Shown here piece after piece: positions 19,496 to 52,703 of a stretch of 64,000 bases of DNA (the stretch's first letter is position 1; every line of letters starts with the position of its first letter). The notes below the pieces were generated by a model. It worked only from the letters and a program-made list of their open reading frames with translations. It had not been told where the DNA came from and searched no databases. The position numbers were made by a program, and so were the translations under genes. The stretch is from Alphaproteobacteria bacterium. GTDB taxonomy: Bacteria > Pseudomonadota > Alphaproteobacteria > Bin95. The stretch is taken from assembly GCA_030833925.1 (NCBI GenBank), contig JAURGE010000007.1, forward strand, positions 1 to 64,000, given 5' to 3'.

Positions 19496-19549
19496 ATCAG
19501 CACATCTAAAATTAAATTTTGCTGCGATGCAGCATTTTTGGAGGGACCA

Positions 19550-24446: not shown

Positions 24447-25673
24447 CTACTTCCACTTCAATTTTGGTTCAAAACCAAAACATCGAGAAGCATTCATCCC
24501 AAGAATATTCCGCTTAGCCTCTTCGTCTAACCAATCAATTTCTGCGATAACCCGCGGCGCATCAAAATCGAAATGAGGCCAATCAGAGGCGTAAAGCAAC
24601 TGAGTCTTAGCGTTTATCATCTCAAACGTAGCCTTCAATCCCACCTCACTGGATTTCTCCATTGGTTGACAGGTGTACCAGCAGTTTTGACGCATATAGT
24701 CCGACGGCATTTGCTTCAAAAGTGGCGCCTCTGACATTCTCATTAAATATTGGTCATCTAGCCGCTGCATTACAAAAGGAACCCAGGCAAGACCACTTTC
24801 AATCCAAACAGATTTTAGTTTTGGAAAACGCTCCGGGATCCCATTTAAAATCCAATTTGTCATGTGAACAATGTTGCACCATGCAAAACCAAGGGCATGC
24901 ATGCCAAGGAAACTATTGCAGGTAGCTAAAGACGGGTCTTGCCAATGATAACCGGCGTGAAATGCTATCGGCTTTCCAGTTTCTTCGATCATTCGATAAA
25001 GCCTCATATACTCGTTGGCATGAACTGGCTTGTATCGTGTTGATGTCACAGTAAACCCAATGACACCGGGCTTATCGGCAAAGTCTTCAACTGTACGGCA
25101 GGCATCTTCAGGAGAATTAAACGGGAGCAGAGCTAATGCACCAATGCCGTCATCGCCTGGGGTTACTCGCTCTGTCAGCCAGCGGTTATAGGCACGCGTG
25201 AGGAGAACCTCCATCTCGACCTGAGGATGCATTCCAAGAAATAGCATCGGTGTTGGGAAAACGACCATTTTGTCGATGCACATTGCCTCCATGGCCCGGC
25301 GAGTTAGGACGACATCTCTATGCACGTCCCCCTCATCTACCTTCTCACGCTGCCCAGACTGATGAGGAATGCGTCCCCCAACATCTTGATATCGGAGTCC
25401 AAGATCACCGTTCAGTCCGTAAGGCGGAGCACCAAAACGCTCCTTCTGGTAAGTCAACGCTTGGTGACGAACTACTGGGTCCTCAATGTGCTCGATAACT
25501 TCGTGCCAATGCACGGTTTCCAGATGATGAGCATCGATATCGCAGATAAACCAGTCTGCAAAACCCATTTTGCGCGCGTCCTCGCGCGCTGGCGCGAGAT
25601 AATCACGAGTATCGGTGTAGACATCCATCTCTTGGACAGACATTGCCTTCGATGAAATGATATTGGCGTCCAT
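24447..25673 (-). CDS. COG2159-type amidohydrolase (ACMSD-like TIM-barrel metal enzyme)
   Basis: DIDAHHLE, AFHAGYHW, LKSVWIESGLAWVPFVMQRLD, LLYASDWPHFDFDAP. Confidence 0.88.
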   Translation of the reverse strand: MDANIISSKAMSVQEMDVYTDTRDYLAPAREDARKMGFADWFICDIDAHHLETVHWHEVIEHIEDPVVRHQALTYQKERFGAPPYGLNGDLGLRYQDVGGRIPHQSGQREKVDEGDVHRDVVLTRRAMEAMCIDKMVVFPTPMLFLGMHPQVEMEVLLTRAYNRWLTERVTPGDDGIGALALLPFNSPEDACRTVEDFADKPGVIGFTVTSTRYKPVHANEYMRLYRMIEETGKPIAFHAGYHWQDPSLATCNSFLGMHALGFAWCNIVHMTNWILNGIPERFPKLKSVWIESGLAWVPFVMQRLDDQYLMRMSEAPLLKQMPSDYMRQNCWYTCQPMEKSSEVGLKATFEMINAKTQLLYASDWPHFDFDAPRVIAEIDWLDEEAKRNILGMNASRCFGFEPKLKWK

Positions 25674-25709
25674 TGTGCGTCTCCTCGATAGAAGGGCTTG
25701 TGGCCGATA

Positions 25710-26090
25710 TTAATCTTTTAATGGCTCCGGTGGGATATCATGATAATCTTCTGGCCGGCGACGCGACCAGAGGCCAAATTCCATTGGTCCAAGACGTAGC
25801 GCTCGCAGAATTTCAGTGACTGACGTTAGAGCTTCGGTTGGCGTTACGATTTCATCACCTTGGCCTAAAACTGCTTTTGGACTGCGCATCTCTCCATCAG
25901 CTTTAGCAGCGTAAAGTTTTATAGCCGCAGTCATGATACGCGCTACTGCCACATCAGAAACACGCCCAGCATCACCTTCAGAGAGAAGTGCCTTTGCATC
26001 CTCCCATACTCTATTGGAAATAACCTCTAAATCATTAGCTGGGTCATTTCCCTGTGAATTGGGTTCAGACGACGACATAAACATCACCAT
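25710..26090 (-). CDS. Uncharacterised ~120 aa protein overlapping the Rieske gene
   Basis: Overlaps the Rieske stop; same strand, between Rieske and amidohydrolase; likely start MFMSSS or MSSSEP. Confidence 0.7.
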   Translation of the reverse strand: MVMFMSSSEPNSQGNDPANDLEVISNRVWEDAKALLSEGDAGRVSDVAVARIMTAAIKLYAAKADGEMRSPKAVLGQGDEIVTPTEALTSVTEILRALRLGPMEFGLWSRRRPEDYHDIPPEPLKD

Positions 26091-26439
26091 CTTGAACCTG
26101 CGTTGAGTACCCTTCGAGATTCATAATTTTTACTGCTGACGCACCAGCAAATTCCCCTGTACGAATATCAAACTCAAGGCCATGCCATGGGCAGACAATG
26201 TGGGTCGTCGAGTCATCAAAATCACGCCCACGACTTTTTAAATCCGCGTCCAGCACTTCAAGTACTTTATTGTAGATGCGCCCCTGGCAGACTGGGCCAC
26301 CTTGATGGGGGCATTTATTTTTCCAAGCAAAAAATTCATTGCCTATACGAAAGACGCCGATCTGTTCCCCCTCAGTTTCAACCACGATCTTCCCACCGTC
26401 CTGAATATCAGCGACACGGCCCACACGAATTGTCGGCAT
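26065..26439 (-). CDS. Rieske [2Fe-2S] ferredoxin-like protein, long inter-motif spacer
   Basis: CPH-X37-CPWH read directly: KNKCPHQGG...IVCPWHGLEFDIRTG. Confidence 0.92.
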   Translation of the reverse strand: MPTIRVGRVADIQDGGKIVVETEGEQIGVFRIGNEFFAWKNKCPHQGGPVCQGRIYNKVLEVLDADLKSRGRDFDDSTTHIVCPWHGLEFDIRTGEFAGASAVKIMNLEGYSTQVQDGDVYVVV

Positions 26440-36475: not shown

Positions 36476-39400
36476 TTAGTTATTACTTAAAGAAAAATGC
36501 TTAATGCTCTGTATTTTATTTGTTATTTCTGAAAAAATTTTTCTCAAATCACTGCCGATAACCACCAGTGCCGGCACCACAAATAAGACTAAGAACGTTG
36601 CAATTAGTAGTCCAAACACGATGGTCACCGCCATTGGAATTAAGAAACGTGCCTGCAAACTTGTTTCAAACATCATAGGGGTTAGACCACCTATGGTGGT
36701 TAGTGAAGTAAGAAGTACTGCCCTAAGCCTATCGACACTGCCTTGAGTTGCAGCAACGGTAAGATCCTCACCCTCAGCTCTATGTTCATCAATCGCAATG
36801 ATCAGGACTATGGAGTCATTAACTACAATCCCAGCAAGTCCTAAAAGAGCTATCATTGAAAGAATTGTGAGATCAAATCCCATCAATAAATGCCCAAAAG
36901 AAGCGCCGATAAACCCAAAGGGTATAATTATCATTACAGCTAAAGGACGGCTAAAACTTCCAAAGACCCAGCAGAGCACAATGTACATTAAGACTAGGCC
37001 AATAAGTGCACCTGTCTTCATGTCCTTGAACGTTCCCTGTTGCTCTTCTGCCTTGCCAGCAAACCTGTAGGCTATTCCATACTTGGCAGCGATATCAGAT
37101 AAGCCATCTCTTTCTAGAGCAGCTAGAACATCATTGCTCGTCGTAATTGTTTCGTCGATTTCGGCCGTAACAGCGATACGCCGTGTTCCATCTTCCCGCT
37201 TAATTTGTGAGAAGCCGGCAGTTTCTCGGAAATTTACGATTTCACTCAGGGGAATTTGAACACCAGACGGCGAACGGACGTATAAATCCCGAACTGATAA
37301 ACCAGACAGAGAATTTTGATCGAGACGAACTCTTACTGTGATTTCATCATCCCCGCGAGGAAAACGCTTCGCAATAGCGCCAGAATAAGCATCGCGGACC
37401 TGTCGGGAAACATTTTCCGTTGTAAATCCAAGGGCATGACCCTTATCACTCAATTCAAGAACAAGCTCGCCCTTTCCATAGGGCATGTCGTCTTCGATTG
37501 CGCTAGTACCAGAATAATTTTCTAGTAAACCACGAACCGCCTGAGCTGCCTGCTTAAGAACTGCAGGATCCCCTCCCGATAACCTTATATCTACTTCACG
37601 CCCCGGCGGCCCACCTTGCGCCGGAGTTAAAGTAAAACTCTCAATCCCGGCAATTGACGGTAAAGCAGCATTCCACGCAGATAAAAACTCATTGGTTCTG
37701 ACAGTTCTATTGTCTGACGATATAAGCTCGAGGAAAACTGAACCAATTTCGTCACCATTGGTTCCGGTTCCTTGTTCGCGCCCAACAGTTGCTCCAACTT
37801 TCGCTAGAGTCTGACGAACAAGGTCTCCCTTGTTGAAACCAAGCTTCTGCTCAGCTTCATATGCGGCTTTTTCTATTTGACGAACAGCATTCTCTGTTGC
37901 GTTTCGCCCTCCGCCGGGGATGAGCCTAACATTAGCAAATACAACATCGGCCTCGACAGAAGGAAAAAAATTAAATGCAACACGCCCACCAGCTACGAGA
38001 CCAGCCGAAACTATGAGTGCTGCAATTGCAGCAGCCACTGTTGCATAGCGAAACTGGATAGCAGCCAATACAGCACGCTTGAATGTACCGTCTCGGAAAC
38101 GATCAAATGCTCTGTTAAAAGCAGCACGTATCCCATATTGCGCTACCATTGGGCCTCTTAATGCGCTTTTCATATGCCCTGGCAATGCAAGAAAACACTC
38201 GAATAAACTTGCTAAAAGGGCAGCGACCACAGCCATTGGTATGGCGGCAATTATTACCCCAATAAGATCGCCTATTACGAAAAGTGGAAGAAATGCGGCG
38301 ATTGTTGTTAACGTCGAGCTCACAACAGGCGCTGCCATTTTCCGCGCGCCCTGCTCTGCAGCCGCTAGAGCTGACAACCCTTTGCGGCGCAGAGACTCCG
38401 CATGTTCACCAACAACGATTGCGTCGTCTACGACAATTCCCAAGACCAAAATAAGACCAAACAAACTAATCATATTGACTGATTGGCCAGACAACCACAT
38501 GACAGCGAGCGCTGCCATTAGTGATGCAGGGATACCAACCGCGACCCAAAAAGCAACTCGGACATTTAAGAAAAGGAATAACACAAGTACCACGAGTACA
38601 AGCCCACTTGCTCCGTTCTTAATTAACAGCCAAATCCTTTCCTTTACTAGATTTGACTCAACGCCGTACTTTTCGACACGTAAGTCAGGCGGAAGAGTTG
38701 GCAAAACCTTGTCCAAGTAGTCATCAAGGATAGTGGCCGTCTCTAAACTGTCAGCTGTGGTCGCGCGTTGAACAAGTAATTCTATGGCCGGCGATCCAAA
38801 GTGTAGCGCTGTGACCTGATCCGCATCAAAGGTTTCACGAACTACTGCAACATCAGCAATGCGCACCTTACTACCAAGGTCGATATTTTTTAGCTCAATG
38901 GCTGCGATTTCCCCCGCCGTTTTTGCCAGTCCTAAACTACGAATTTGACGAATACCCCCACCAGTTTCACCTGAAGGAATATCTTGCGATGAGCTAGAAA
39001 TTGCGCGGGAAACATCCGCCAATGTCACATCGATGGCACGCAGCCGAAATGGATCTACCTCAACCGATATTTCAGGATCCCGCATCCCTGAAAATGAGAC
39101 ACGGGCAATACCAGCCTTCATCATCTCATCACGCATACGTTTGGCTAATGTTCGAAGAGCTGATTCAGAATACGGGCCAGATAGAGCAATTCGCGCGATA
39201 GTGTCATAGCGGACAATTCGCGCTACATCGGGTTGTTCACTTCCCTGGGGAAGTGTTGTGGCACGCGCAACAGCCGCATCAACATTTGCGAATGCATTCT
39301 GCATATTCGCACCTTGTTGAAACTCTACAATAACAGACGCAGCCCCTTCCCGCGCTGTAGACCTCACTCTTTTAACATCATCTAAAAACCGGACTTCTCT

Positions 39401-39658
39401 CTCGATTGTTTGCACAATTGAGAGGTCTACATCATCTGCCGACGCACCTTCCCAACGGACATTTATTGAAACAATGTCGATACCAAAATCTGGGAAAAAT
39501 TGCGTGTTCATCCGCCACAACCCAGCCAAGCCAGCTATGATCATGATGGCCATTATTAAATTTGCTGCTGTCGGATGCCGAGCGAAGAGGCTAATTAATC
39601 CTCTTTGTGGCGTCTCACGTGGAAAGCCTTCAGAGCTACTATCGAGCGTGTCGTTCAC
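36476..39658 (-). CDS. RND efflux transporter permease (AcrB/HAE1-like)
   Basis: 1060 aa; FARHPTAANLIMAIMIIAGLAG; GLILVLGIVVDDAIVVGEH; GLAGIVVNDSIVLI. Confidence 0.95.
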   Translation of the reverse strand: MNDTLDSSSEGFPRETPQRGLISLFARHPTAANLIMAIMIIAGLAGLWRMNTQFFPDFGIDIVSINVRWEGASADDVDLSIVQTIEREVRFLDDVKRVRSTAREGAASVIVEFQQGANMQNAFANVDAAVARATTLPQGSEQPDVARIVRYDTIARIALSGPYSESALRTLAKRMRDEMMKAGIARVSFSGMRDPEISVEVDPFRLRAIDVTLADVSRAISSSSQDIPSGETGGGIRQIRSLGLAKTAGEIAAIELKNIDLGSKVRIADVAVVRETFDADQVTALHFGSPAIELLVQRATTADSLETATILDDYLDKVLPTLPPDLRVEKYGVESNLVKERIWLLIKNGASGLVLVVLVLFLFLNVRVAFWVAVGIPASLMAALAVMWLSGQSVNMISLFGLILVLGIVVDDAIVVGEHAESLRRKGLSALAAAEQGARKMAAPVVSSTLTTIAAFLPLFVIGDLIGVIIAAIPMAVVAALLASLFECFLALPGHMKSALRGPMVAQYGIRAAFNRAFDRFRDGTFKRAVLAAIQFRYATVAAAIAALIVSAGLVAGGRVAFNFFPSVEADVVFANVRLIPGGGRNATENAVRQIEKAAYEAEQKLGFNKGDLVRQTLAKVGATVGREQGTGTNGDEIGSVFLELISSDNRTVRTNEFLSAWNAALPSIAGIESFTLTPAQGGPPGREVDIRLSGGDPAVLKQAAQAVRGLLENYSGTSAIEDDMPYGKGELVLELSDKGHALGFTTENVSRQVRDAYSGAIAKRFPRGDDEITVRVRLDQNSLSGLSVRDLYVRSPSGVQIPLSEIVNFRETAGFSQIKREDGTRRIAVTAEIDETITTSNDVLAALERDGLSDIAAKYGIAYRFAGKAEEQQGTFKDMKTGALIGLVLMYIVLCWVFGSFSRPLAVMIIIPFGFIGASFGHLLMGFDLTILSMIALLGLAGIVVNDSIVLIIAIDEHRAEGEDLTVAATQGSVDRLRAVLLTSLTTIGGLTPMMFETSLQARFLIPMAVTIVFGLLIATFLVLFVVPALVVIGSDLRKIFSEITNKIQSIKHFSLSNN

Positions 39659-40911
39659 GTATTTGACTCACGGACACGCACTTTTAAACCTGGTGCTATT
39701 TCGGGGATACGTGTCACCACAAGTTGGCTTGCATCCGCAATATCACCGGAAATGAGTAAGTCAAAACCATCGTGAGCAAGCACCGTTACAATTCGCTCTA
39801 CTAATCTACCTTTATCTATTAGGTAAATCCTCTCGGAATCATAGACAGCAATCTCAGGAACACGGAAAACATTTTCGTAAACAATATCAGGGGTTTGGGC
39901 TTCTATAAATGCACCTGGCCGAAGGTCAAAGGCATTCTGGCCTTTATCAATTGGTGCATAGAGCCAAACCCCTCCTGAAGCAGCATCAAATTCACCCTGA
40001 ACCCGTTCTAATGTTGCCTTGAGTTTTATTGATGCCTTACCAGCGCGCCAAACGACAAGCGCCGGACGACCCTTAACCCCCCCCTCAGATGAAAGTCTTC
40101 CAAATTGCGCATCACTCATGTGAAAACGAGCTTCTAGTCGCTCACTATCGACTATCCTAGCAACCTTATCGGAAGCACTAAGCCGTTTTCCTACAGCAGC
40201 TGCTGTTTCAACTAAAACACCATCAAAGGGCGCCGTAAGACGGGTTTCCTCTAGATTACGTTTTGCCCTTTTTAATCTCACCTCTGCTCTAGTAACACTT
40301 GCTGAAAGCCGAGTAACCTGAGCTTCCAAACGCGTAATTGTCTCACTGCGAGCAACCCTGTTTTGCCGAGCGGAAAGATAAGAAAAACGTGCATCATCTG
40401 CAGTTTTGCTTGCGACTACTCCCCTGTCTGCCAGGCTCTTTTTCCGCTCAAGGTCAGTCTTCCGCAGTACTTCTTGTTCTTGATCGAATGTAGCGAGCAC
40501 CTTATTTGAGGCCAGATCAGACTTTATCTCAACTAGAGAAGCTTTAGCTTCAACTAGAGACGCCTCCGCATCACTAAGCTCTGTTTCATATTTGAAGGGA
40601 TCAATTGCAACGAGGAGCTCTCCCTTTATTACTTTTCCCCCTGCGTAAAAATTGGGTCCTATTTCAACGACCCGCCCCTCAACCAATGGCCTTAAGTCTG
40701 CATCCTGGGAGGAAATGATTTGTCCCTGAAGCCGCAAAGTGGGTTGGAGGTTAGCTCTTTGCAAAACAACTGAGTCTACAACCCAGTCTTTCTCAACGGG
40801 AGGTTTAGAAGCAGCCTCAGTTTTTGTAAGCACCAGAAGTGCAAAGATCGCACCACCACCACCTAGGAAGAGTAACGCCAAAATTAACTGAGCAAGCCTA
40901 CGCAAAATCAA
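39655..40911 (-). CDS. RND efflux periplasmic adaptor (membrane fusion protein)
   Basis: QGQIISSQDADLRPLVEGRVVEI; coiled-coil hairpin; RLTAPFDGVLVE-type barrel-sandwich; ATGA overlap with permease. Confidence 0.93.
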   Translation of the reverse strand: MILRRLAQLILALLFLGGGGAIFALLVLTKTEAASKPPVEKDWVVDSVVLQRANLQPTLRLQGQIISSQDADLRPLVEGRVVEIGPNFYAGGKVIKGELLVAIDPFKYETELSDAEASLVEAKASLVEIKSDLASNKVLATFDQEQEVLRKTDLERKKSLADRGVVASKTADDARFSYLSARQNRVARSETITRLEAQVTRLSASVTRAEVRLKRAKRNLEETRLTAPFDGVLVETAAAVGKRLSASDKVARIVDSERLEARFHMSDAQFGRLSSEGGVKGRPALVVWRAGKASIKLKATLERVQGEFDAASGGVWLYAPIDKGQNAFDLRPGAFIEAQTPDIVYENVFRVPEIAVYDSERIYLIDKGRLVERIVTVLAHDGFDLLISGDIADASQLVVTRIPEIAPGLKVRVRESNT

Positions 40912-41126: not shown

Positions 41127-41494
41127 TGCACAAACAAAGCCCTATGCCTAACACTTACGTAATGAACGCCAATTCTGATCAAAAAATTCAAAAATTACTT
41201 GATCCTTCAGCAATGGAAGTTGTGATTGAACTTCAGAAGGCTGAGCTAGACCGACTACTTCTCGAGAATAGGCGTCTTCATGAAAGGATCGACCAGCTAC
41301 TTCAATTGCAAGAGCGGGAACAGGTGTTGCGCCAACAACTACAGTCCCTGCTCGGCCATTCTCCTAAAACATCTCAAATTCCAAATAAGCTGATAAATGA
41401 CAAAGCCCTTCAATCGGCCCAAACACGCTATGACAGATTGAAGGATACCTTAGGCTTACTCCTAGTGGCTCTTGAAAAGCGGACTAGAACTTAA
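41126..41494 (+). CDS. Hypothetical coiled-coil protein (true start possibly ATG 41144 or 41162)
   Basis: LQKAELDRLLLENRRLHERIDQLLQLQEREQVLRQQLQSLL heptad-like. Confidence 0.6.
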   Translation: MHKQSPMPNTYVMNANSDQKIQKLLDPSAMEVVIELQKAELDRLLLENRRLHERIDQLLQLQEREQVLRQQLQSLLGHSPKTSQIPNKLINDKALQSAQTRYDRLKDTLGLLLVALEKRTRT

Positions 41495-41882
41495 CGATTA
41501 CGTAATCACCTTCGGTAGACACGTCGACTGTCTCGGCATGCATTTCTTTGCCATCCCCAACTTCAATGTCATAAGAATGGGTTTTCCAACGTTTTGGATC
41601 AAACCGAGATTTTCCAGTCCTGAGATCAAACTCCCAGCCATGCCACGGGCATCTGACAATCTCACCACCGCGACTATAATTGTAGCATCCTGGCTTATTG
41701 GCTTCTACTAGCCCAATCACAACACCCTCCGAGAGCAGTCCCCCCATATGCGGACAGGCATCCCTTAGGCCAAAATATTCTCCATCAACATTAAAGATGG
41801 CAACTTTTCGACCTGCCACCTCAACGCTAACACGTGTGCCCGGAGGAATATCCTCCACTTTCGCCGCAATATGCTTCGCCAT
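41484..41882 (-). CDS. Rieske [2Fe-2S] ferredoxin-like protein, long inter-motif spacer
   Basis: CPH-X32-CPWH read directly: RDACPHMGG...IVRCPWHGWEFDLRTGKS. Confidence 0.93.
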   Translation of the reverse strand: MAKHIAAKVEDIPPGTRVSVEVAGRKVAIFNVDGEYFGLRDACPHMGGLLSEGVVIGLVEANKPGCYNYSRGGEIVRCPWHGWEFDLRTGKSRFDPKRWKTHSYDIEVGDGKEMHAETVDVSTEGDYVIVKF

Positions 41883-41886
41883 GCCC

Positions 41887-42996
41887 TCAGATGCCGTAAA
41901 GAGAACGTGCGTTACCTAAAAAGAAACCCTCTTTTTGCTCATCAGTTGCACGCGGCAAAGGTATACGTGTCGGGTCATCAAAATCCCAATGAGGATAATC
42001 AGTTGCAAATAATAATTTATCCCAACCAATCCACTCAAAGACGTCTTTTAGATGGCCACGACGATCAGGCTCTTCAAAAGGCTGTGTAGTGTACCAAATA
42101 TGCTCAGCCATATATTCAGAGGGTGGTCGCTTCACGTGGGGTAGCTCTTGTCTATTCTGAGCCCAAATCCTGTCCAAGCGCCATGAAAGCGACGGAGCCC
42201 AGGCAAACCCAGCTTCAACAATGATCAATTTCAATTTCGGCCAACGCTCAAAGACACCTTCTAGCACCATTGATGAAACCAAGGATTGCGCCGATTGTGA
42301 ATGCCCCACCATGTCTTCTGTATAATAACTGGGCCAACCACCTCCAGTGACCGGCGTACCGCCAAACCCGAAGGCATGCACAGCAAGGGGAAGATTTGCA
42401 TCCTGACAGGCACTAAAAATTGGCCAATAGCGGCGGTTACCCATTGGCTCTGATGTCCTGATTAACATGAAAGCCTGAATGAAATTTGTATCGCCGGCGC
42501 GACGCTCTATCTCCTGGGCCGAAAGGAAACCATCTTCATATGGAAGACACACAGAACCCTTTAAGCGAGCCTCTTTGGAAGTCCATTCTGCAATCTGCCA
42601 ATCATTAATTGCTTTACAGTAAGCAGCAGCAAAGTCCGGGTTCTGAAGTCCCTGCCCTGACTTTAATGGATTCAAAACACCCAGCTGAACATTATATGGG
42701 TCTAGGTGATGCTTTCGCATAAATTCTAGGTCTGAACCAGGTTTCTCACCGTTTGGTCCATACGCATCACGGCGCGCCGCATCAGGCTGCCCTTTTGGAT
42801 AGGCTGGCCCCGCTTGATATGGCTGTCGTAGCAACATCCCATAGGTTTGGTAATGGTCTTGCCAGCGCTTTGAGAGATAGGGGAAAATCTCCCTCTCAAC
42901 CGACTTAGGACTTGGATGAATGTCGCAGTCCGCTATTGCAAGTTTCTGATTTGCAGGCTTCGTGGCCGAAGCTTGGCCGATGGTTTCGACAGTCAC
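41887..42996 (-). CDS. COG2159-type amidohydrolase (A)
   Basis: DCDIHPSPKS; AVHAFGFGG; LIIVEAGFAWAPSLSWRLD; LLFATDYPHWDFDDP. Confidence 0.9.
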   Translation of the reverse strand: MTVETIGQASATKPANQKLAIADCDIHPSPKSVEREIFPYLSKRWQDHYQTYGMLLRQPYQAGPAYPKGQPDAARRDAYGPNGEKPGSDLEFMRKHHLDPYNVQLGVLNPLKSGQGLQNPDFAAAYCKAINDWQIAEWTSKEARLKGSVCLPYEDGFLSAQEIERRAGDTNFIQAFMLIRTSEPMGNRRYWPIFSACQDANLPLAVHAFGFGGTPVTGGGWPSYYTEDMVGHSQSAQSLVSSMVLEGVFERWPKLKLIIVEAGFAWAPSLSWRLDRIWAQNRQELPHVKRPPSEYMAEHIWYTTQPFEEPDRRGHLKDVFEWIGWDKLLFATDYPHWDFDDPTRIPLPRATDEQKEGFFLGNARSLYGI

Positions 42997-44063
42997 GTTA
43001 CGGCCTCCTTTAATCTCGGATAAGTCGCAAGAGGATTATCATAGCAGATTTTATTCTGAAGTGCTCTCGAGATTCCATCAGGAATCGCGTTATTTCCCTC
43101 GTAGTGCCAATGCGGATAGTCACTAGAGAATAGAAGCATTTCATCACTGTCAAAATGCTCAATTAATTTTTCTAAGTCATCTGGCCTAGGTGGTGCATCA
43201 TAAGGTTGTATTGTCAGTCGAACATGGTCCTTGGCAATTTCAAGCGGATGCCTGTCCACCCAAGGGGTTTCCATCCTCAAACCACGCCAAAACTTACCAA
43301 GCCTCCAAAGGTGTGCAGGTAACCAAGCGAAGCCGGACTCTAAAAGAACAACCTTTAATTCAGGGAATTCCGCAAAAACTCCCTCCGTGATCAAGCTAGT
43401 GAGTGTTGTTTGGAATGCCTGTGACTGTGCAGCTGAGTCTTCGGCATAATAAGTAGGCCAACCAACTGACGTTACGGGATGCCTATAAGCACTGCCCGCA
43501 TGAATACCTACAGGAAGGCCATTCCTCTCTGCAGCCCGATAAATTGGCCAGTAGCGGCGACGCCCTAAAGGCATTTCATCCATTACCAGCATTAAAACCT
43601 GAACAAACCGCTTATCGACAGCCATGCGATCTATCTCGGCTGCGGCATAATCAGGATTTTGTGGAGAAACGACGATAGAAGCGCGAAGGCGCGGCTCTTT
43701 ATCCAACCATTCTGTGGCAATCCAATCATTCACCGCCCGAGCAAATGCGTAAGCCATATCTTCGGTATACAAAAGTTGAACACCGTAAAGACAGTTGCAG
43801 ATGGCAAATTTCGTACCAAAACCATCCAGCGCTTCTTTTCTAAGTCGCACTAAGTCTTGGCCAGCCTTACCCACTTCCGGCTTCCAGTCAGGACGGGCTG
43901 AAATAGGAGCGTTCTTAGGGTAGCTGATTGAATCTAATTCATGCACACCTCGCTGGATCACCATATCACGCCAATGATCATCCAGATATGGCAGCAAAGC
44001 CTTGATACTAGGCACCGCTGGATGAAGATCACAGTCTATAGCGCCAACCGGCGGGTAAGGCAT
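42993..44063 (-). CDS. COG2159-type amidohydrolase (B), tandem paralogue
   Basis: DCDLHPAVPS; GIHAGSAYRHP; VVLLESGFAWLPAHLWRLG; LLFSSDYPHWHYEGN. Confidence 0.9.
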   Translation of the reverse strand: MPYPPVGAIDCDLHPAVPSIKALLPYLDDHWRDMVIQRGVHELDSISYPKNAPISARPDWKPEVGKAGQDLVRLRKEALDGFGTKFAICNCLYGVQLLYTEDMAYAFARAVNDWIATEWLDKEPRLRASIVVSPQNPDYAAAEIDRMAVDKRFVQVLMLVMDEMPLGRRRYWPIYRAAERNGLPVGIHAGSAYRHPVTSVGWPTYYAEDSAAQSQAFQTTLTSLITEGVFAEFPELKVVLLESGFAWLPAHLWRLGKFWRGLRMETPWVDRHPLEIAKDHVRLTIQPYDAPPRPDDLEKLIEHFDSDEMLLFSSDYPHWHYEGNNAIPDGISRALQNKICYDNPLATYPRLKEAVT

Positions 44064-44066
44064 TTT

Positions 44067-44963
44067 TTAGTCCTCCTCAGGCCTGGACCGCCATTCCTCA
44101 GCGTCGAATGCTACATGCTCTCCAAAATGATGAATGGTCGTATCAGTAGGAAGGGTCATTTTCGAGAATTGTGTTTCCGCCGAAGATAGATGAACAACGC
44201 GAGACTGGGTCTGAAGCCATTTTGTTGCGGGTAGAAGTGTCGACTGCCGCTGAGTCACATCCATCAAAAAATAATGATGTGGAATCACTACTTTTGGTCG
44301 CAATCGGTTAATTATGCTGTCCACCATTTCAAATCCCATTACATGCTGGCTATCGTCAACAGGCAGCAAAGCAACGTCTACGTTACCAAGTTTTTCCCAT
44401 ACATAATCTGGGGGATTATGCCTGTTATCGCCCCAGTGAAGAAATCGAAGACCACCAGTTTCAATAACAACTATTACATTATCCCATGATCGTGGATTAT
44501 CTGGCGGCTCGATATCAACACCGTTGAAACGTTTGTGAATTAGCTTGAAATCATATGTGGCGGCACTTGAGTCGGTAGCATGTTTATCGGCAATGCCATC
44601 AATCAAAACATCAAGAAAACTGTATTGGCCGATTGGCCTATCCAAAAGAACACTTGCGTCTAACCTATCGAGAGCATCGTGATCAAAGTGAGCATGGGTT
44701 GAAATTCCTATGTCAATCTTTGTGAGTGGCATATCCTTAAAATACCAGTCCCAAGTCCTACTTGGGTGGTTTCGCCAGGGATCAATCATTATTGATAGGC
44801 CCTGTGGCGTCGTCAGCCTAAACGCACTCGATCCGAAGTAAGCAATTTTTACAATGCCAAGATCTTCGGGTTTTCCAATACCTGACTCTTGTTTAAGCAT
44901 CATTGAGTTGTGATTGCTCGCGCGAAGCCAAGATGTAAGACCCGAATTAAGCTTACGCATCAT
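44067..44963 (-). CDS. MBL-fold metallo-hydrolase (UlaG-like)
   Basis: IMIDPWRNHPS; ISTHAHFDHDALDRLD (HxHxDH); HWGDNRHNPPDYV; VVIPHHYF. Confidence 0.88.
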   Translation of the reverse strand: MMRKLNSGLTSWLRASNHNSMMLKQESGIGKPEDLGIVKIAYFGSSAFRLTTPQGLSIMIDPWRNHPSRTWDWYFKDMPLTKIDIGISTHAHFDHDALDRLDASVLLDRPIGQYSFLDVLIDGIADKHATDSSAATYDFKLIHKRFNGVDIEPPDNPRSWDNVIVVIETGGLRFLHWGDNRHNPPDYVWEKLGNVDVALLPVDDSQHVMGFEMVDSIINRLRPKVVIPHHYFLMDVTQRQSTLLPATKWLQTQSRVVHLSSAETQFSKMTLPTDTTIHHFGEHVAFDAEEWRSRPEED

Positions 44964-45662
44964 TTAGTCCTCGAAAATCGCAACAGCTCGAATTGGACTA
45001 GCTGTTCCTCCCCTAATTTTTAGCGGAAAACCTGCAAAACGGAAGCGACCCTTTCCAACCAACTCCTCTAAGTTCCATAGGCATTCAATGTGGGTGATGC
45101 CCCGCTCCCCACAAGCCAGATGGGCTTTATAATTTGCGGCGCCTTCAGGAGCAGGACTAATAGCTTCAACACCAAATTGACGTATTTTTTTATCCGCAAG
45201 CCAATGAACTGAAGCAACATGGAGGCCTGGAAAGTCGTGTTGATACCCAGGCTTCCCCCATAATCGAGCATTAACGCTCATGTGTATCAATACGGTATCA
45301 CCCTCAAGGATCTCTTCCCCAGTGGCCTTAAGTGCTGCTTCCATCTCATCAACCGTTATTTCATGGCGTAACGGGACATCGGAAAGATCTAGGCAAAGGC
45401 CGCCTGTATAAAAATTTTCTAATGGAATTTCGTCTATAGAGGCTGCCCCAGGTCGTGGGTCAAAATGAATTGGAGCGTCTATATGGGTTCCCGCATGGTC
45501 AGACATGGAAATCGACATTGCTTTAGAGGAAAATTTAATTCCACCCGCTTCCTTCACCTCTGAATGGTCGTTCCACGTTGTAATGATCACCGGAGGGTGG
45601 GCGGGATGCGCGGGGGTTCGATGATAGAGCTCTCTTGAAAGGTCAATTATACGCATCCGCAT
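44964..45662 (-). CDS. Cyclase family protein (kynurenine formamidase-like)
   Basis: MRIIDLSRELYHRTPAHP; SDHAGTHIDAPIHFDP; supplied ORF extends spuriously into phnN, start set at Met 45662. Confidence 0.88.
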   Translation of the reverse strand: MRMRIIDLSRELYHRTPAHPAHPPVIITTWNDHSEVKEAGGIKFSSKAMSISMSDHAGTHIDAPIHFDPRPGAASIDEIPLENFYTGGLCLDLSDVPLRHEITVDEMEAALKATGEEILEGDTVLIHMSVNARLWGKPGYQHDFPGLHVASVHWLADKKIRQFGVEAISPAPEGAANYKAHLACGERGITHIECLWNLEELVGKGRFRFAGFPLKIRGGTASPIRAVAIFED

Positions 45663-45768
45663 CTCCAGCAATAAAAGGAAGTCATTAAAACTATAGATCC
45701 CCGTCACAAAGATTACATAATCTTGGGTGCAAATAGGGAATCGATACAATAACGAAAAGTGACAATGG

Positions 45769-46350
45769 ATGACTGGCTTAGCGCCATTAATCTTGGTTGT
45801 TGGTCCAAGCGGAGCCGGCAAAGATACCCTTCTTGAGGGAGCCGCCCGCGAACTCGAACCAACAGGCAATTTCAGTTTTGCGAAACGAGTGATAACCCGC
45901 CCTGTTACTCCTGAGGGCGAACAACACATCGAGATGAGCACAGACGAGTTTAATCAAAAGGAAGCAGAGGGATATTTTCTTCTATCATGGCGCGCGCATG
46001 GCTATTGTTATGGTATCTTAGCCGAGCCGACAGAAACACTTAGGACACGCGGGTGCGCTGTAGTGGCAAGTGTTTCTAGAACAGTAATAGATGACGCAAA
46101 GTCTCGCCATCAACCTGTCCATGTTATCGTCGTAACAGCACCCAAAACTATTCTTGCAAGGCGTTTAGCCGATCGGGGCCGCGAACCCGAAGCTGATGTT
46201 TTAGCGAGACTTGAGCGCTCTGATGCTATCGACGTTTGCGGTCAAAACGTAACGATTATTGAAAATATTTCTGATGTAAAAAGTGGCATCAGACAGATGA
46301 TATCAGCATTAGAAGCTGCTTCATCCTTTGAATGGAAATCGACGGATTAA
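45769..46350 (+). CDS. phnN: Ribose 1,5-bisphosphokinase PhnN
   Basis: LILVVGPSGAGKDTLLEGAARE...FAKRVITRPVTPEGEQHIEMSTDEF...FLLSWRAHGYCYGI. Confidence 0.93.
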   Translation: MTGLAPLILVVGPSGAGKDTLLEGAARELEPTGNFSFAKRVITRPVTPEGEQHIEMSTDEFNQKEAEGYFLLSWRAHGYCYGILAEPTETLRTRGCAVVASVSRTVIDDAKSRHQPVHVIVVTAPKTILARRLADRGREPEADVLARLERSDAIDVCGQNVTIIENISDVKSGIRQMISALEAASSFEWKSTD

Positions 46351-47016
46351 CCGAAAGGGCTGATCTGATCCCACCTGCTCGTAAAGACTTACTCCAGAGA
46401 CCTCCATTGGTCCTACCGCACCTGCAGCTTCGGCAGCACTTATTAATCCGGCAGTTAACTTTGATCTAAGCCCGTCTGCTGCTATGGCGCTGGTTAGCGT
46501 CATATGAAAACGGAAATCTTCCATGACGTAAGGGTATCCCCAGCGCAGGAGATTTTCTTCCTGGCGTCCAGTCAATCCAGCCAAGCGACGCTTCGCTAGC
46601 TCTTTCTCTGTCTGTGGCGCTCTAAACGGCTCAAAAACCTCAACAGCATTGGCTGCCAATTCAATCATCGATTTTGACTGAACGAGAAGCTTAAACGCAA
46701 CAAAATTGCCTAACTCTGCCGGAGCAACCATTGGGCAGTTAAAGGACTTTTGCGTTGATACAAAGTCCTCACACGTTCGGATTAAATCAGCGAATGAGCA
46801 GCCTTCAGACAGGCGGAAAGGAGGCTTTAAAGTTGCATGAAACCCATACAAACGAGGAGATGCTGTAAGTTCATCTAAATTTAAACCGCTTAATCCACTC
46901 AAAGATGGACGAATGAGAGGCTCACCTGTTTCGACATCCCTACCTAACCACGCATTGCCAAATCTCCAGAGAGGACTTTCACGGTCAGGTGCAAAATAAA
47001 TTGCATAACGTGTCAT
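46321..47016 (-). CDS. DUF1045 phosphonate-metabolism protein, 2H-phosphoesterase-like
   Basis: MTRYAIYFAPDRESPLWRFGNAWLGRD; two H-x-T motifs GFHATLKPPFRL and FHMTLTSAI; ATGA overlap with phnM. Confidence 0.9.
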   Translation of the reverse strand: MTRYAIYFAPDRESPLWRFGNAWLGRDVETGEPLIRPSLSGLSGLNLDELTASPRLYGFHATLKPPFRLSEGCSFADLIRTCEDFVSTQKSFNCPMVAPAELGNFVAFKLLVQSKSMIELAANAVEVFEPFRAPQTEKELAKRRLAGLTGRQEENLLRWGYPYVMEDFRFHMTLTSAIAADGLRSKLTAGLISAAEAAGAVGPMEVSGVSLYEQVGSDQPFRLIRRFPFKG

Positions 47017-48146
47017 GCTACTTTTACGCCATGCACCCAGGTGCCTCGGACCACTGCAGCATCATCGATTTTACGCACGCGCACGAGATCTGCTCTGAGA
47101 CCCACAGCAATCTCTCCACGATCAAGATGGCCCAGCATTTCAGCAGGATTTTTAGATACTGTCGCGACTGCTTTAGGCAAAGTCATGACACCAATTTCAT
47201 TTAGTTTAAATGCCGCTTGAACCAAGCTAATGGGCGCATAGTCTGAAGAGAGTGCATCGAGAAGGTCAGCGTCCGCTAGATCAATTGCAGAGACATTACC
47301 CGAATGGGACCCCCCTCTAGCAACATTAGGTCCACCCATAACTGTCCGCATCCCAGCGGCTTTCGCAGCCTCTGCTGCTTCCATAGTGGTAGGAAATTCA
47401 GAAATTCGAATGTTGTCTTTTACAGCCTCAGAGACATGCTCTGGTGTAGTATCATCATGACTTGCTACAGGACCACGATCAGACCACAGATCAAGAATTT
47501 GTCTACGATTAACCTCGGAGTTTTTGCTTGCCGAGGCAATTCTTGAAGCGACATATGCCTCAAATTCCTTATCAGACATGTTGGCGTTTTTATATACTTT
47601 AAAGGATTTGAGATCGCGCCATTGACGCTGACCAGGCGTGTGATCCATCAATGAAATTAGTCGGACGACTGGATCTTTGGCATATGGCTTGAACAGTTCC
47701 GGCGCTACATCATCGGCAATCTCACACCGAAGATGAACATAATGATCTGCTCTAAATAAATTCAATGTACTAGCTTCTGTAACAGCCTCCATAACGGTTT
47801 TGAGCAGCGCTCGGCGATAATTCCGATCCAAATACTCACCTACCGCGATGGCGTCATAAACAGTGGTTACTCCAGCAGCTACCATCTGCGCATCATGAGC
47901 AAGGATAGCCGCTACGGGAGAAGGCCATACAACTCCTGGACGCGGGACCATATGTTTTTCAACATTATCTGTGTGGATTTCAACAAATCCTGGCAGCAGG
48001 AAATCCTGACCAAGGTCATGAGCACCATTGGGAATGTTATCCCCTTCCCAGATCTCCGAGATACGACCTTCCGTTACTGCAATCCCTCCAAGGAATTCTG
48101 CTTCGGCATTAACAATTCGAGCGTTGGCCAATATTAAATCAGTCAT
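47013..48146 (-). CDS. phnM: Alpha-D-ribose 1-methylphosphonate 5-triphosphate diphosphatase
   Basis: LLPGFVEIHTDNVEKHMVPRPGVVWPSPVAAILAHDAQMVAAGVTTVYDAIAVG; VASHDDTTPEHV; VMGGPNVARGGSHSGN. Confidence 0.97.
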   Translation of the reverse strand: MTDLILANARIVNAEAEFLGGIAVTEGRISEIWEGDNIPNGAHDLGQDFLLPGFVEIHTDNVEKHMVPRPGVVWPSPVAAILAHDAQMVAAGVTTVYDAIAVGEYLDRNYRRALLKTVMEAVTEASTLNLFRADHYVHLRCEIADDVAPELFKPYAKDPVVRLISLMDHTPGQRQWRDLKSFKVYKNANMSDKEFEAYVASRIASASKNSEVNRRQILDLWSDRGPVASHDDTTPEHVSEAVKDNIRISEFPTTMEAAEAAKAAGMRTVMGGPNVARGGSHSGNVSAIDLADADLLDALSSDYAPISLVQAAFKLNEIGVMTLPKAVATVSKNPAEMLGHLDRGEIAVGLRADLVRVRKIDDAAVVRGTWVHGVKVA

Positions 48147-48853
48147 TAGGCTGCAGCCTTAAATTGAGAAACATCAAATAATCTATCAGCAAAGCGATCT
48201 CGGGCTGTCTCGTCGTGGCAAATTGCAATAATCGCAGCGCCTCGGGACTTCGCCTCCAAAATTAGCTCAATGGCCGACTCTCTATTGCTGGCATCAAGCG
48301 AGGCCGTTGGTTCATCGAGTAATAAAATTGGATAAGGCCTTACAAGCCCCATAGCGATATTTACTCTTTGCTGTTCACCACCCGAAAACGTTGCGGGAGG
48401 CACATTCCATAAATGTTCTGGAAGATTAAGCCGCCTTAGAAGAGCACTGGACACCTCAATGGCGATCTCAGAAGACATTCCCCCCGAGATGGCAACCTCA
48501 GAAATAAGATCGATGGAGGAAATTCTTGGAATAACCCGGAGAAATTGGCTTACATAACCAATAGTTTCCCGTCGTATTTCAAGCTTTGTTCTTGCTTCAA
48601 CAGAAGCTATGTCGACCCATTCACCATGATGTTTGACAAGAATTTCTCCTGCTGATGGGAGATAATTTGCATATAAGCTGCGAAGGAGAGTCGACTTTCC
48701 AGACCCAGAACTACCAATCAAAGCAACACATTCGCCGGCTGAAACTTCAAACGATATATCGTTAAAGACAGGGAGCTGAACACCACCACGCCCGTGCAGG
48801 GTAAATGTCTTGCGTAGATTTCGTACCTGCAACATCAAAGATTTTTGGGTCAT
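48146..48853 (-). CDS. phnL: C-P lyase subunit PhnL (ABC ATPase)
   Basis: Walker A GSSGSGKST; SGGEQQRVNIAMGLVRPYPILLLDEPTASLDA. Confidence 0.95.
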   Translation of the reverse strand: MTQKSLMLQVRNLRKTFTLHGRGGVQLPVFNDISFEVSAGECVALIGSSGSGKSTLLRSLYANYLPSAGEILVKHHGEWVDIASVEARTKLEIRRETIGYVSQFLRVIPRISSIDLISEVAISGGMSSEIAIEVSSALLRRLNLPEHLWNVPPATFSGGEQQRVNIAMGLVRPYPILLLDEPTASLDASNRESAIELILEAKSRGAAIIAICHDETARDRFADRLFDVSQFKAAA

Positions 48854-49626
48854 GCCTGTAGCACCGATGAAACGAGGAGTTGGCTGTAAGGATGTTGAGG
48901 ATCATCAAGAACCTGGTCGGTTAACCCGGTTTCCACTACACGTCCCTGCCGCATCACCATCAATCGATCGGAGAGCAAGCGAACTACAGCAAGATCATGA
49001 GTGACGACAACAGCGGCAACGCCAAGGTCTCGGACTAAGCCTCGAAGAAGATCAAGCAGTCTTGCCTGCACAGAAACATCCAGTCCACCCGTCGGCTCAT
49101 CCATAAAAATCAGACGTGGTTTTGACACGAGAATTCGGGCAATTTGGACACGCTGCTGCATCCCGCCAGAAAAAGTACGAGGGAGATCATCAACACGTGA
49201 TGAAGGTATCTCTACCCGGGTCAACCAATCGAGGGCCTCATTTCGGATATTTCCGTAATTTCTAGCGCCCACAGCCATTAAACGCTCACCTACATTTCCG
49301 CCGGCAGACACATTCATCCGAAGGCCATCGCGCGGATTTTGGCGGACAATGCCCCAGTCTGTCCGCATAAGAAGCCTTCGCTCGGGCTCCGACAAACTGA
49401 AAACATCCCTGAGTCCCTGTCCACCAACATCGAACCTAACAATGCCATTCGACGGTTCGAGCATCCCAGATAGACACCCCAGCAGCGTTGACTTTCCAGA
49501 GCCTGATTCCCCAACAACGCCAAGCACCTCTCCAGGGTAAAGGCGAAAGGAAACGTCTTCACAACCGAGCTGACCACCAGGGTAAGAGTGACCAACCGAC
49601 TCAGCTTCAAGTAACGCTTTCATCAT
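48850..49626 (-). CDS. phnK: C-P lyase subunit PhnK (ABC ATPase)
   Basis: GESGSGKSTLLGCLSG; IVRQNPRDGLRMNVSAGGNVGERLMAVGARNYG; SGGMQQRVQIARILV. Confidence 0.96.
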   Translation of the reverse strand: MMKALLEAESVGHSYPGGQLGCEDVSFRLYPGEVLGVVGESGSGKSTLLGCLSGMLEPSNGIVRFDVGGQGLRDVFSLSEPERRLLMRTDWGIVRQNPRDGLRMNVSAGGNVGERLMAVGARNYGNIRNEALDWLTRVEIPSSRVDDLPRTFSGGMQQRVQIARILVSKPRLIFMDEPTGGLDVSVQARLLDLLRGLVRDLGVAAVVVTHDLAVVRLLSDRLMVMRQGRVVETGLTDQVLDDPQHPYSQLLVSSVLQA

Positions 49627-50543
49627 GCCTCTCCCTCCGAGGACACAAATCCAATGCTGGCCGCATCAGAGGCACGATGCCCAGCATGACCTGCGGCTCT
49701 GCGCTCACGACAATGATCACTGTCTGAACAAACAAACATGTGATCACCTTTGTCATCCAAAATCACTTCATCAAGAAATACCCCTTCTGCGCCGCATAGG
49801 GCGCACGGGTCTTCAAATCTCTGGATTTCAAAAGGATGATCATCGAAGTCGAGGCTTCGGACACGAGTATACGGCGGTATCGCATAAATGCGTTTCTCTC
49901 GCCCAGCTCCAAACAATTGCAATGCAGGCATCATCGCCATCTTTGGGTTATCAAACTTAGGTATTGGCGATGGAGACATTATATGGCGGGCATTAACCTC
50001 AACTGGATAATCGTAGGTCGTTATAATCTCACCATGCCTAGAAATATCCTCATAAAGCTTCACATGCATAAGGCCGTATTCGGAATACGCATGTAACTTT
50101 CTTGTTTCAACTTCACGAGGCTCAAGCTTCCAAAGCGGTTCAGGCTGCGGAACCTGATAAACAAGAATTTGATTTTCGGTTAACTGCTTTTCGGGAATTC
50201 TATGTCGTGTCTGGATGAGGGTCGCTTTTTGCGTTTCCTCCGTAGTCTTAACCCCCGAAACCCTCTGAAAAAAGCGCCGGATAGATACTGCATTCGTTGT
50301 ATCGTCTGCACCTTGGTCAATAACTTTGAGTGTGTCGTCTTTACCAATGATGGACGCTGTAATCTGGATGCCACCCGTTCCCCAGCCATAGGCCATAGGC
50401 ATCTCTCGCCCCCCAAACGGAACCTGATATCCAGGGACAGCAATGGCTTTTAGAAGCGTCCTCCGGATCATTCGCTTCGTTTGCTCATCGAGATACGCAA
50501 AATTGTAGGTACCATCGACCGAATGAAACGCCTGAGAATTCAT
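49623..50543 (-). CDS. phnJ: Alpha-D-ribose 1-methylphosphonate 5-phosphate C-P lyase
   Basis: YNFAYLDEQTKRMIRRTLLKAIAVPGYQVPFGGREMPM; Fe-S ligand motif CALC-X21-CSDSDHC (CX2CX21CX5C). Confidence 0.98.
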   Translation of the reverse strand: MNSQAFHSVDGTYNFAYLDEQTKRMIRRTLLKAIAVPGYQVPFGGREMPMAYGWGTGGIQITASIIGKDDTLKVIDQGADDTTNAVSIRRFFQRVSGVKTTEETQKATLIQTRHRIPEKQLTENQILVYQVPQPEPLWKLEPREVETRKLHAYSEYGLMHVKLYEDISRHGEIITTYDYPVEVNARHIMSPSPIPKFDNPKMAMMPALQLFGAGREKRIYAIPPYTRVRSLDFDDHPFEIQRFEDPCALCGAEGVFLDEVILDDKGDHMFVCSDSDHCRERRAAGHAGHRASDAASIGFVSSEGEA

Positions 50544-51634
50544 TCCGCAGCCTCCTGTCCCGGGGTTTTCAAAGCGTCAGCGCGCAGGCCGCGCAACATT
50601 GAAAGCTCAGACTGGAAATCAACGTAATGTGGTAATTTCAAATGGCTCACGAAGCCCGCAGCTTCGACGTTGTCGCTGTGCGCAAGCACAAATTCTTCGT
50701 CTTGCGGAGGATGGTCTCGGTCTTCACCCAATTCACTGGCTTTAAGCGCACGATCGACCAAGGCCATTGCCATAGTCTTTCGTTCTGACTGTCCAAAGGC
50801 GAGGCCATAACCCCGAGTGAACATGGGCTCAATACCCTTCGCACCTTGGAATTGGTTTATCATCTGGCATTCAGTTACTTCGATGGTTCCGATCGAAATT
50901 GGGAACCCTAGCTCAGGTGGGGTAAAAACCACTTCGACAAAGCCCATCCTAATTTCCCCGACAAAAGGATGGTTACGACCATAACCTCGCTGCGTCGCAT
51001 AACCGAGTGCGAGAACAAAACCCTCATCGCCTCGGAATAAATTTTGAAGTCTCTGGTCCCGATCCGCAGGAAACGACATTGGCTGTCTGCCTAAATCAAA
51101 TGGCTCCGCCTCTGGTTCAGATCTCGTCTCCGCTTGCATAAGACCCTGAGCACCTAAAATATCAGTTACACGCGGCATAGTTGGATCGGTGGCTGTGGCC
51201 TCTGGCGCTACCCGCTCAGCTTGGTCTGATTTAGCAAGACCAAAATCCAAAAGCCGATGCGTGTAATCATATGTGGGACCCAATATCTGGCCACCTGGCA
51301 CATCTTTAAAAGCTGCAGAAATACGCCGGCGGATAATCATCTTGGACGTGTCTATTGGCTGGGTGGCACCAAATCGCGGCAGTGTTGTGCGAAAGGCCCT
51401 AAGAAGAAAAATCGCTTCAACCATATCCCCTTGGGCCTGTTTTATGGCTAGCGCCGCTAAGTCTGGATCGTAGAGCGATCCTTCTGTCATAACGCGATCG
51501 ACAGCCCGTCCAAGTTGATTTCGCACCTGGTCGATAGCAAGCTCAGGAACGGAAGTATCTCCTCTCCTTTCCTCAGCAATCAACCCGTGCGTGGCTTCAA
51601 TGGCGGCCTCTCCGCCTTTCGTTGCGACGTACAT
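50540..51634 (-). CDS. phnI: C-P lyase complex subunit PhnI
   Basis: MYVATKGGEAAIEATHGLIAEERRGD...LGYATQRGYGRNHPFVGEIRMGFVEV...ECQMINQFQG. Confidence 0.98.
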   Translation of the reverse strand: MYVATKGGEAAIEATHGLIAEERRGDTSVPELAIDQVRNQLGRAVDRVMTEGSLYDPDLAALAIKQAQGDMVEAIFLLRAFRTTLPRFGATQPIDTSKMIIRRRISAAFKDVPGGQILGPTYDYTHRLLDFGLAKSDQAERVAPEATATDPTMPRVTDILGAQGLMQAETRSEPEAEPFDLGRQPMSFPADRDQRLQNLFRGDEGFVLALGYATQRGYGRNHPFVGEIRMGFVEVVFTPPELGFPISIGTIEVTECQMINQFQGAKGIEPMFTRGYGLAFGQSERKTMAMALVDRALKASELGEDRDHPPQDEEFVLAHSDNVEAAGFVSHLKLPHYVDFQSELSMLRGLRADALKTPGQEAAE

Positions 51635-51638
51635 AGTG

Positions 51639-52226
51639 TCAGACCTCCAAAGTGTGAGCAGACACGCTACGTGGCAGAGCTAATGCTAAGTTGCCTGTAA
51701 AAAGGCAGACATCAAACCCAAGTGGGTAGAGTGCATTATTTGTTGCCCAGGCCGCCCAAAAGCTTGCAACTTCAAGCATTGGCTCAATTCTACGTTTTCC
51801 CTTGATCCCCGGACCGGATATTTCGATCACGGGACCTTTTGAAAGGCTCTGGCAGGCAACTAATAACGTTGCTGATCTATCTGGATATTTATCGGTGCCA
51901 ATTTTGAATTGCTGGAAGGGAGCCGACTCAGGATCGAGAATAATGGCAAAATCAGCTTCATTTGGCTGAGAGGTTATTCGACAACCCGCATGGAAGTTTA
52001 AGTATCGTATGGTTTCTGGGTCTTCTTTATCCAGCCAAATGGATACATCGTTGTCTAAAAGTGTAAGGCATGCAGCAGCTAGCGAAGATGGCCAGCCGGT
52101 GGGCGCCTCTTGAGGGCCCTGGACTTCTACTATGCGACCAGGGAATGAGAATGCCTCCATGATTGAACGAAAAGCAGACTGCGCACCAAATACAGGCTGT
52201 GAAAAGCCGGTGGCTATATGTGTCAT
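51639..52226 (-). CDS. phnH: C-P lyase complex subunit PhnH
   Basis: GFSQPVFGAQSAFRSIMEAFSFPGRIVEV...ISGPGIKG...PLGFDVCLFTGNLALALPRSV. Confidence 0.95.
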   Translation of the reverse strand: MTHIATGFSQPVFGAQSAFRSIMEAFSFPGRIVEVQGPQEAPTGWPSSLAAACLTLLDNDVSIWLDKEDPETIRYLNFHAGCRITSQPNEADFAIILDPESAPFQQFKIGTDKYPDRSATLLVACQSLSKGPVIEISGPGIKGKRRIEPMLEVASFWAAWATNNALYPLGFDVCLFTGNLALALPRSVSAHTLEV

Positions 52227-52229
52227 GAC

Positions 52230-52703
52230 TTAACTTTCCGCCCTAACCATAGTGAAGAAATCGACCTTTGTAGCACCAGCCTTCCGTCGAGATTTTAGGT
52301 GTCTCTCTTTTTCTTCACTCCGAAGAGGCTCGATAACTTTTGCCCAAATCTCGTCGCGCCGCGACGTTTGCAGGAGGGCATCACAAATAGCTGCGGCTTT
52401 TGCCTTCTCAATGTCTCTCCCTTGGACGTAAGCATGCCCAACAACATCTGGGAGCGATTCCATCGTGATTGCGCACCGGGTGACACTCATCTCACCCACA
52501 GAAAACATTTGCCCTGTTCCACCAGCTCTACCGCGTGTCATTACAGCGCCTACTTCAGGCTGTCTTAGCCAACGAAAATCTGGTGGGTCACTTATGGTAT
52601 CAAAACACTTAGCTAAGGACTGAGCATGTGCCCTGGCCAGCACGCCCATCCATTCAGCCCGGTCTGCATTAGGATTTTTCTCAAGGTCGGAATTGGACGA
52701 CAT
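52230..52703 (-). CDS. phnG: C-P lyase complex subunit PhnG
   Basis: RAEWMGVLARAH...PEVGAVMTRGRAGGTGQMFSVGEMSVTRCAITM...GHAYVQGRDIEKAKAAAICDALLQ. Confidence 0.95.
   Translation of the reverse strand: MSSNSDLEKNPNADRAEWMGVLARAHAQSLAKCFDTISDPPDFRWLRQPEVGAVMTRGRAGGTGQMFSVGEMSVTRCAITMESLPDVVGHAYVQGRDIEKAKAAAICDALLQTSRRDEIWAKVIEPLRSEEKERHLKSRRKAGATKVDFFTMVRAES

Follow-up and report, generated by a model that had tools for sequence, protein, structure and literature searches.

A predicted AibH1H2-type dinuclear monooxygenase encoded with two hydrolases in a five-gene unit of an alphaproteobacterium

Which oxygenase does a small Rieske protein serve when it is encoded in a tight unit together with hydrolases, and what might such a unit do? 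The question arises from the window analysed here, i.e. the whole stretch of 64,000 nucleotides from a fragmented alphaproteobacterial genome (2.78 Mb, 181 contigs). An ORF check of the window found five minus-strand genes which, in transcription order, encode a predicted metal-dependent hydrolase of the cyclase family (PF04199; 44964–45662; motif HAGTHIDAPIHF), an MBL-fold hydrolase (Lactamase_B_3, TM0207/UPF0173-like; 44067–44963), two amidohydrolases, A (42993–44063) and B (41887–42996), and a Rieske [2Fe-2S] ferredoxin (41484–41882). The successive gaps are 0, +3, −4 and +4 nt, and both coordinates and motifs confirmed the first-pass annotation in describing five genes on one strand that overlap or lie about 0 to 4 nt apart. 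All five Pfam matches are well above cut-off (Cyclase, 6e-33; Lactamase_B_3, 9e-24; Amidohydro_2, 7e-39 for A and 2e-50 for B; Rieske, 2e-16), and the expected motifs are present: HAGTHIDAP in the cyclase, HAHFDH in the MBL protein (whose GDN and HH metal motifs are also intact), DCDLHP and SDYPHW in A, DCDIHP and TDYPHW in B, and CPH...CPWH in the Rieske protein.

The identical five-gene order recurs in all four relatives of the same genus, i.e. in five of five genomes including that of the window, with B at 91, 81, 75 and 74% identity; the unit is therefore not a product of chance or an artefact, but is under selection. The five genes form one operon-like unit, which is probably catabolic. 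The literature searched describes neither a pathway with this gene set nor its substrate, in agreement with the earlier view of an uncharacterised catabolic pathway; a characterised counterpart exists for A, B and the Rieske gene only (hereafter the triad), namely the aib cluster, and not for the five genes together.

It is the two amidohydrolases that answer the first part of the question. Among solved structures, the PDB sequence search returned AibH2 as the best match of B (8.5e-80) and AibH1 as the best match of A (4.7e-87), whereas the best decarboxylase match was 2e-13 for B and 3e-9 for A, a difference of more than 60 orders of magnitude for either protein. These nearest solved relatives are the subunits of the 2-aminoisobutyrate monooxygenase AibH1H2-AibG-AibF of Rhodococcus wratislaviensis (PMC7782822, PMC10401708). 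The dinuclear cofactor of AibH2 has six ligands, Asp25, His27, His211, Glu265, Asp337 and His340 (PMC7782822, PMC10401708), and a second-sphere residue, Asp342, is required for activity (PMC10401708). The corresponding residues of B are D25, H27, H207, E261, D333 and H336, with D338 in the place of Asp342, and all seven, the second-sphere aspartate included, are conserved in B as well as in every one of its 90 homologues. Protein A keeps the five ligands of the mononuclear AibH1 site and, just like AibH1, carries a His at the Asp342 position; this position is never Asp in A and its 83 homologues, being mostly His or Gln. An Asp as opposed to His/Gln after the DYPH motif is thus a simple sequence mark that tells catalytic from partner subunits.

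Phylogeny and fold agree with this assignment. In the tree, A-type sequences including AibH1 cluster in a single clade (support 100/99) and stand clear of the B-type, with AibH1 as sister to the alphaproteobacterial A proteins (100/95), and B groups with AibH2, away from the single-subunit enzymes of the same kind. When the structure of B was modelled with the help of 27 relatives (pLDDT 86.6), its best fold match was to the AibH2 chains (E 1e-32, TM 0.86), compared with about 1e-15 for decarboxylases. In the fold alignment, B and AibH2 are only 38% identical, and substrate and metal preference are therefore not transferable from AibH2 to B.

The locus thus encodes a PF04909 TIM-barrel hydroxylase subunit closest to AibH2 (B), an AibH1-like partner beside it (A), and an adjoining small Rieske protein with the CxH...CxxH motif. 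We conclude that A and B are almost certainly the two subunits, alpha' and alpha respectively, of an amidohydrolase-related dinuclear oxygenase (ARO) of the AibH1H2 type. The first-pass annotation had seen no obvious oxygenase alpha subunit in the window; because B retains the dinuclear ligands and the second-sphere Asp, A has the His of AibH1, and the order H1-H2-Rieske is that of aibH1-aibH2-aibG, the oxygenase it missed is the A/B pair itself, and decarboxylation by either protein is unlikely.

A second candidate dinuclear oxygenase is encoded elsewhere in the window (24447–26439, minus strand). It comprises an amidohydrolase (24447–25673), which has all seven AibH2 residues and whose nearest solved relative is the ARO 8SM7 (7e-32), and a Rieske gene (26065–26439); the ORF between the two (25710–26090; 126 aa) belongs to no known family.

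The association of A, B and the Rieske protein extends well beyond this genus. The contig scan of genomes with B, in which the nearest public relative was an alphaproteobacterial MAG labelled Rhodospirillales, yielded 80 loci, 78 of them outside the genus of the window and, judging from record titles and ranks, spread over Pseudomonadota, Acidobacteriota, Chloroflexota, Thermomicrobiota, Bacillota, Actinomycetota and others. Of these 78 loci, 75 have an H1-type gene immediately upstream of H2; among the remaining three, H1 is displaced by one gene in a single case, and the other two loci lie at the end of a contig. The Rieske gene comes next on the same strand in 63 loci, and any Rieske gene is found in 65. 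A Rieske protein has been reported to co-occur with AibH2-like proteins in 90% of cases (PMC10401708), and the loci surveyed here show in addition that nearly all of the subfamily of B has an AibH1-type partner, which makes the two-subunit form with its Rieske partner a standard module in several phyla. The neighbourhood survey proposed in the first-pass annotation therefore had a divided outcome: A, B and the Rieske gene do co-occur, but the five-gene set does not recur outside the genus of the window. Among the loci surveyed, one (L067) has two distinct ARO sets next to each other, and in another (L071) a single Rieske gene follows two H1-H2 pairs in tandem.

Taken as a whole, the unit very probably encodes an AibH1H2-type multicomponent monooxygenase and two hydrolases acting in the same small-molecule pathway. 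The monooxygenase reading is based on homology, ligand conservation, conserved gene order and fold, from which we infer the heterodimer, the metals, the electron path and the monooxygenation. A and B would form a heteromeric TIM-barrel hydroxylase, in which O2 would be activated at a dinuclear site in B (Mn/Fe or Fe2) and A, as its AibH1-like partner, would bind one metal. Electrons would be taken from NAD(P)H by a reductase encoded outside the unit and passed to the Rieske protein, in a role like that of AibG, and then to the dinuclear site of B, which would reduce O2 and hydroxylate an unreactive aliphatic C–H bond, possibly resulting in N- or O-dealkylation. The cyclase, the MBL protein or both may hydrolyse an amide/lactam or an ester/lactone of the substrate or product, before or after hydroxylation. 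No AibF-type flavin/2Fe-2S reductase is encoded in or adjoining the unit, and the NAD(P)H:ferredoxin reductase in the role of AibF is probably supplied in trans; an AibF-like Fer2-FAD-NAD protein encoded elsewhere in the genome (G000:C141) is one candidate. The published ARO survey defines AROs by their Rieske neighbour and not by a reductase, so membership of the family does not depend on a reductase.

The two hydrolases can be assigned less finely. The nearest solved relatives of the cyclase, which probably starts at its second ATG (45656) as judged by comparison with homologues, are distant ones, namely isatin hydrolases and kynurenine formamidases (4e-14 and weaker). It shares with them PF04199 and the HxGTHxDxPxH motif, and its metal motif is intact, but it scores far below the curated arylformamidase cut-off (TIGR03035; 63.6 vs 223.05 bits). 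The MBL protein likewise falls below the curated UPF0173/PRK00685 cut-off (47.5 vs 144 bits), and its model, of modest quality (pLDDT 72.5), places it near TM0207/UlaG-type folds and no finer. If the two attached hydrolases do belong to the pathway, they narrow its substrate to a compound with a hydrolysable bond.

Whether they do belong to it is where the most serious alternative arises, namely that the monooxygenase triad is real, and the cyclase and MBL protein are merely co-transcribed neighbours serving another function. We consider this possible, although unlikely. Cyclase and MBL genes accompany the triad only in the genus of the window (five of five genomes), where the unit lies beside the phn (C-P lyase) operon; in the 78 loci outside the genus, no MBL gene was found near the triad, and only one weak match to the cyclase. 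Moreover, in a genome of a sister genus (G007), which has close homologues of both hydrolases, the cyclase, the MBL gene, the triad and phn are on four different contigs. Against a separate function, the genes are spaced by 0 to 4 nt and identically ordered in every genome of the genus (five of five), with identities falling to about 75%, and in G007 the cyclase gene lies 1 nt from a gene for a TauD-family oxygenase, which is consistent with teamwork between cyclase and oxygenase. Since the two hydrolases join the triad in one genus only, their functional link to it rests on the tight spacing in these five genomes.

Elsewhere in the class, neighbours of the hydrolase genes offer little guidance. 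MBL homologues occur in nine of 385 genomes, next to unrelated genes that give no clue to the substrate (cupin, acyl-CoA dehydrogenases, SDR/molybdopterin dehydrogenase, HupE). Cyclase homologues occur in 16 of the 385, and their neighbours (TauD, LysR, amidase, mandelate-racemase-like, GMC oxidoreductase or HpcH genes) are catabolic without a single theme. Because the other triad loci lack the MBL gene and, apart from the one weak match, the cyclase, and because both hydrolase genes are off the contig of the triad in G007, the five genes look as if a widespread monooxygenase module had been combined with two hydrolases at the level of the genus.

The phn neighbourhood raises a second alternative. 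Upstream of the unit, a 106-bp divergent intergenic region (45663–45768) is followed by phnN (45769–46350, plus strand) and then by the C-P lyase operon (46321–52703, minus strand), containing the genes for DUF1045, PhnM, PhnL, PhnK, PhnJ and PhnI and further genes. The divergence of phnN and the cyclase gene is kept in the genus: phn lies beside the unit in the window and in three of its four relatives, and in the fourth a partial operon is present, the contig ending within it. The other flank varies, with RND pump permease and adaptor genes just downstream of the unit in the window (36476–40911, minus strand) and in one relative (G004), absent there in the other three (G001–G003), and with an alcohol dehydrogenase gene and hisG/hisD in one of these (G001). 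This constancy of the phn side could mean that the unit feeds organophosphonate use, with the monooxygenase and hydrolases readying a substituted phosphonate for the adjoining C-P lyase, and 2-aminoethylphosphonate is indeed known to strongly perturb the EPR signal of the ARO SfbO (PMC10811679). However, elsewhere in the family phn is present on contigs other than that of the triad, and none of the other triad loci has phn nearby. Outside the genus the two are thus apart, so that their adjacency may be simple synteny within one genus, and it gives no more than a weak hint of a phosphonate link; by eye, no shared motif is evident in the phnN–cyclase intergenic regions of the genus members. We regard the phosphonate role as improbable. 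A slightly less probable version still is that the AibH1H2-type Mn/Fe monooxygenase and the two hydrolases produce a C-P lyase substrate from a substituted organophosphonate, or from a compound used together with phosphonates; if true, this would be the first phosphorus-acquisition role for enzymes of the AibH1H2 type.

The MBL protein was also considered as the PhnP of the C-P lyase pathway, and this was rejected, as NCBIfam gave no PhnP-type match. DUF1045, with weak similarity to 2H phosphoesterases, may replace PhnP in the phn operon and is a likelier candidate than the MBL protein.

Returning to the monooxygenase, comparison with known systems places it close to the aib cluster, in which two PF04909 subunits are likewise followed by a small Rieske gene (PMC7782822); B has the dinuclear ligands and second-sphere Asp of AibH1H2, and A its His exchange. 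The unit differs in lacking the AibF reductase, the permease and the aib dehydrogenases, and in having the additional cyclase and MBL hydrolases; aibD1, aibE, aibC and aibT were not found around the triad, whose neighbours are RND pump and phn genes. SfbO and the other single-subunit AROs or 'TruffO' proteins (PDB 8SM6–8SM9; PMC10811679) share the fold, the six ligands and an adjoining Rieske ferredoxin, but they were described and crystallized as single proteins, without an AibH1-type partner. PtmU3 (PDB 6OMP), also a PF04909 diiron monooxygenase (PMC10811679), is a much weaker match (1.5e-16 for B) from a different, biosynthetic context. As for the earlier proposal that one or both amidohydrolases may be decarboxylases, with the Rieske protein serving another oxygenase, A and B do share PF04909 and the TIM-barrel fold with the ACMSD and gamma-resorcylate decarboxylases, which turn up as weaker sequence and fold matches, but these are mononuclear, non-redox enzymes and not the closest characterized relatives in either search, and the strength of the AibH1/AibH2 matches, the full ligand set and second-sphere Asp of B, and the regular partnership of such amidohydrolases with a Rieske gene across phyla leave such a non-redox decarboxylase or hydrolase role highly improbable, the decarboxylase reading being rejected on the grounds of sequence, fold and ligands.

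Mn/Fe C–H hydroxylases of this amidohydrolase fold were recognized only in 2021–2024, and a published survey lists 555 AibH2-like proteins without a known reaction. The unit adds a member to this known, recently discovered kind of enzyme. With the operon assigned to the AibH1H2-type AROs, what had been a vague 'hydrolase pathway' becomes a monooxygenase that can be tested.

Some indication of the type of product comes from other neighbours of the triad, as operons elsewhere often also encode enzymes that oxidize alcohols. The version of the unit in the window contains no alcohol dehydrogenase or dedicated permease, but in two members of the genus a zinc alcohol dehydrogenase gene directly follows the Rieske gene (L109:8205–9218, with a 4-nt overlap; L111:1604–2596, after a 17-nt gap), which suggests that the product of the monooxygenase is an alcohol. 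In sister-genus genomes, the gene of a HisD-like dehydrogenase, possibly an enzyme oxidizing a hydroxymethyl group, overlaps the H1 gene by 4 nt (L116:10984–12294; L117:6608–7918), and in a group of Acidobacteria a PQQ dehydrogenase gene adjoins the triad; both are likewise consistent with an alcohol product. When Pfam families were counted among the operon neighbours of 84 triad loci and compared with those of control genes, PQQ dehydrogenases (13 vs 3) and transporters stood out; the PQQ dehydrogenase cases come mostly from one related group of loci, and their excess is therefore not independent evidence.

Finally, a third PF04909 protein is encoded on another contig of the same genome (C114; L006, about 19067–19942); it has the six dinuclear ligands and a Glu at the Asp342 position.
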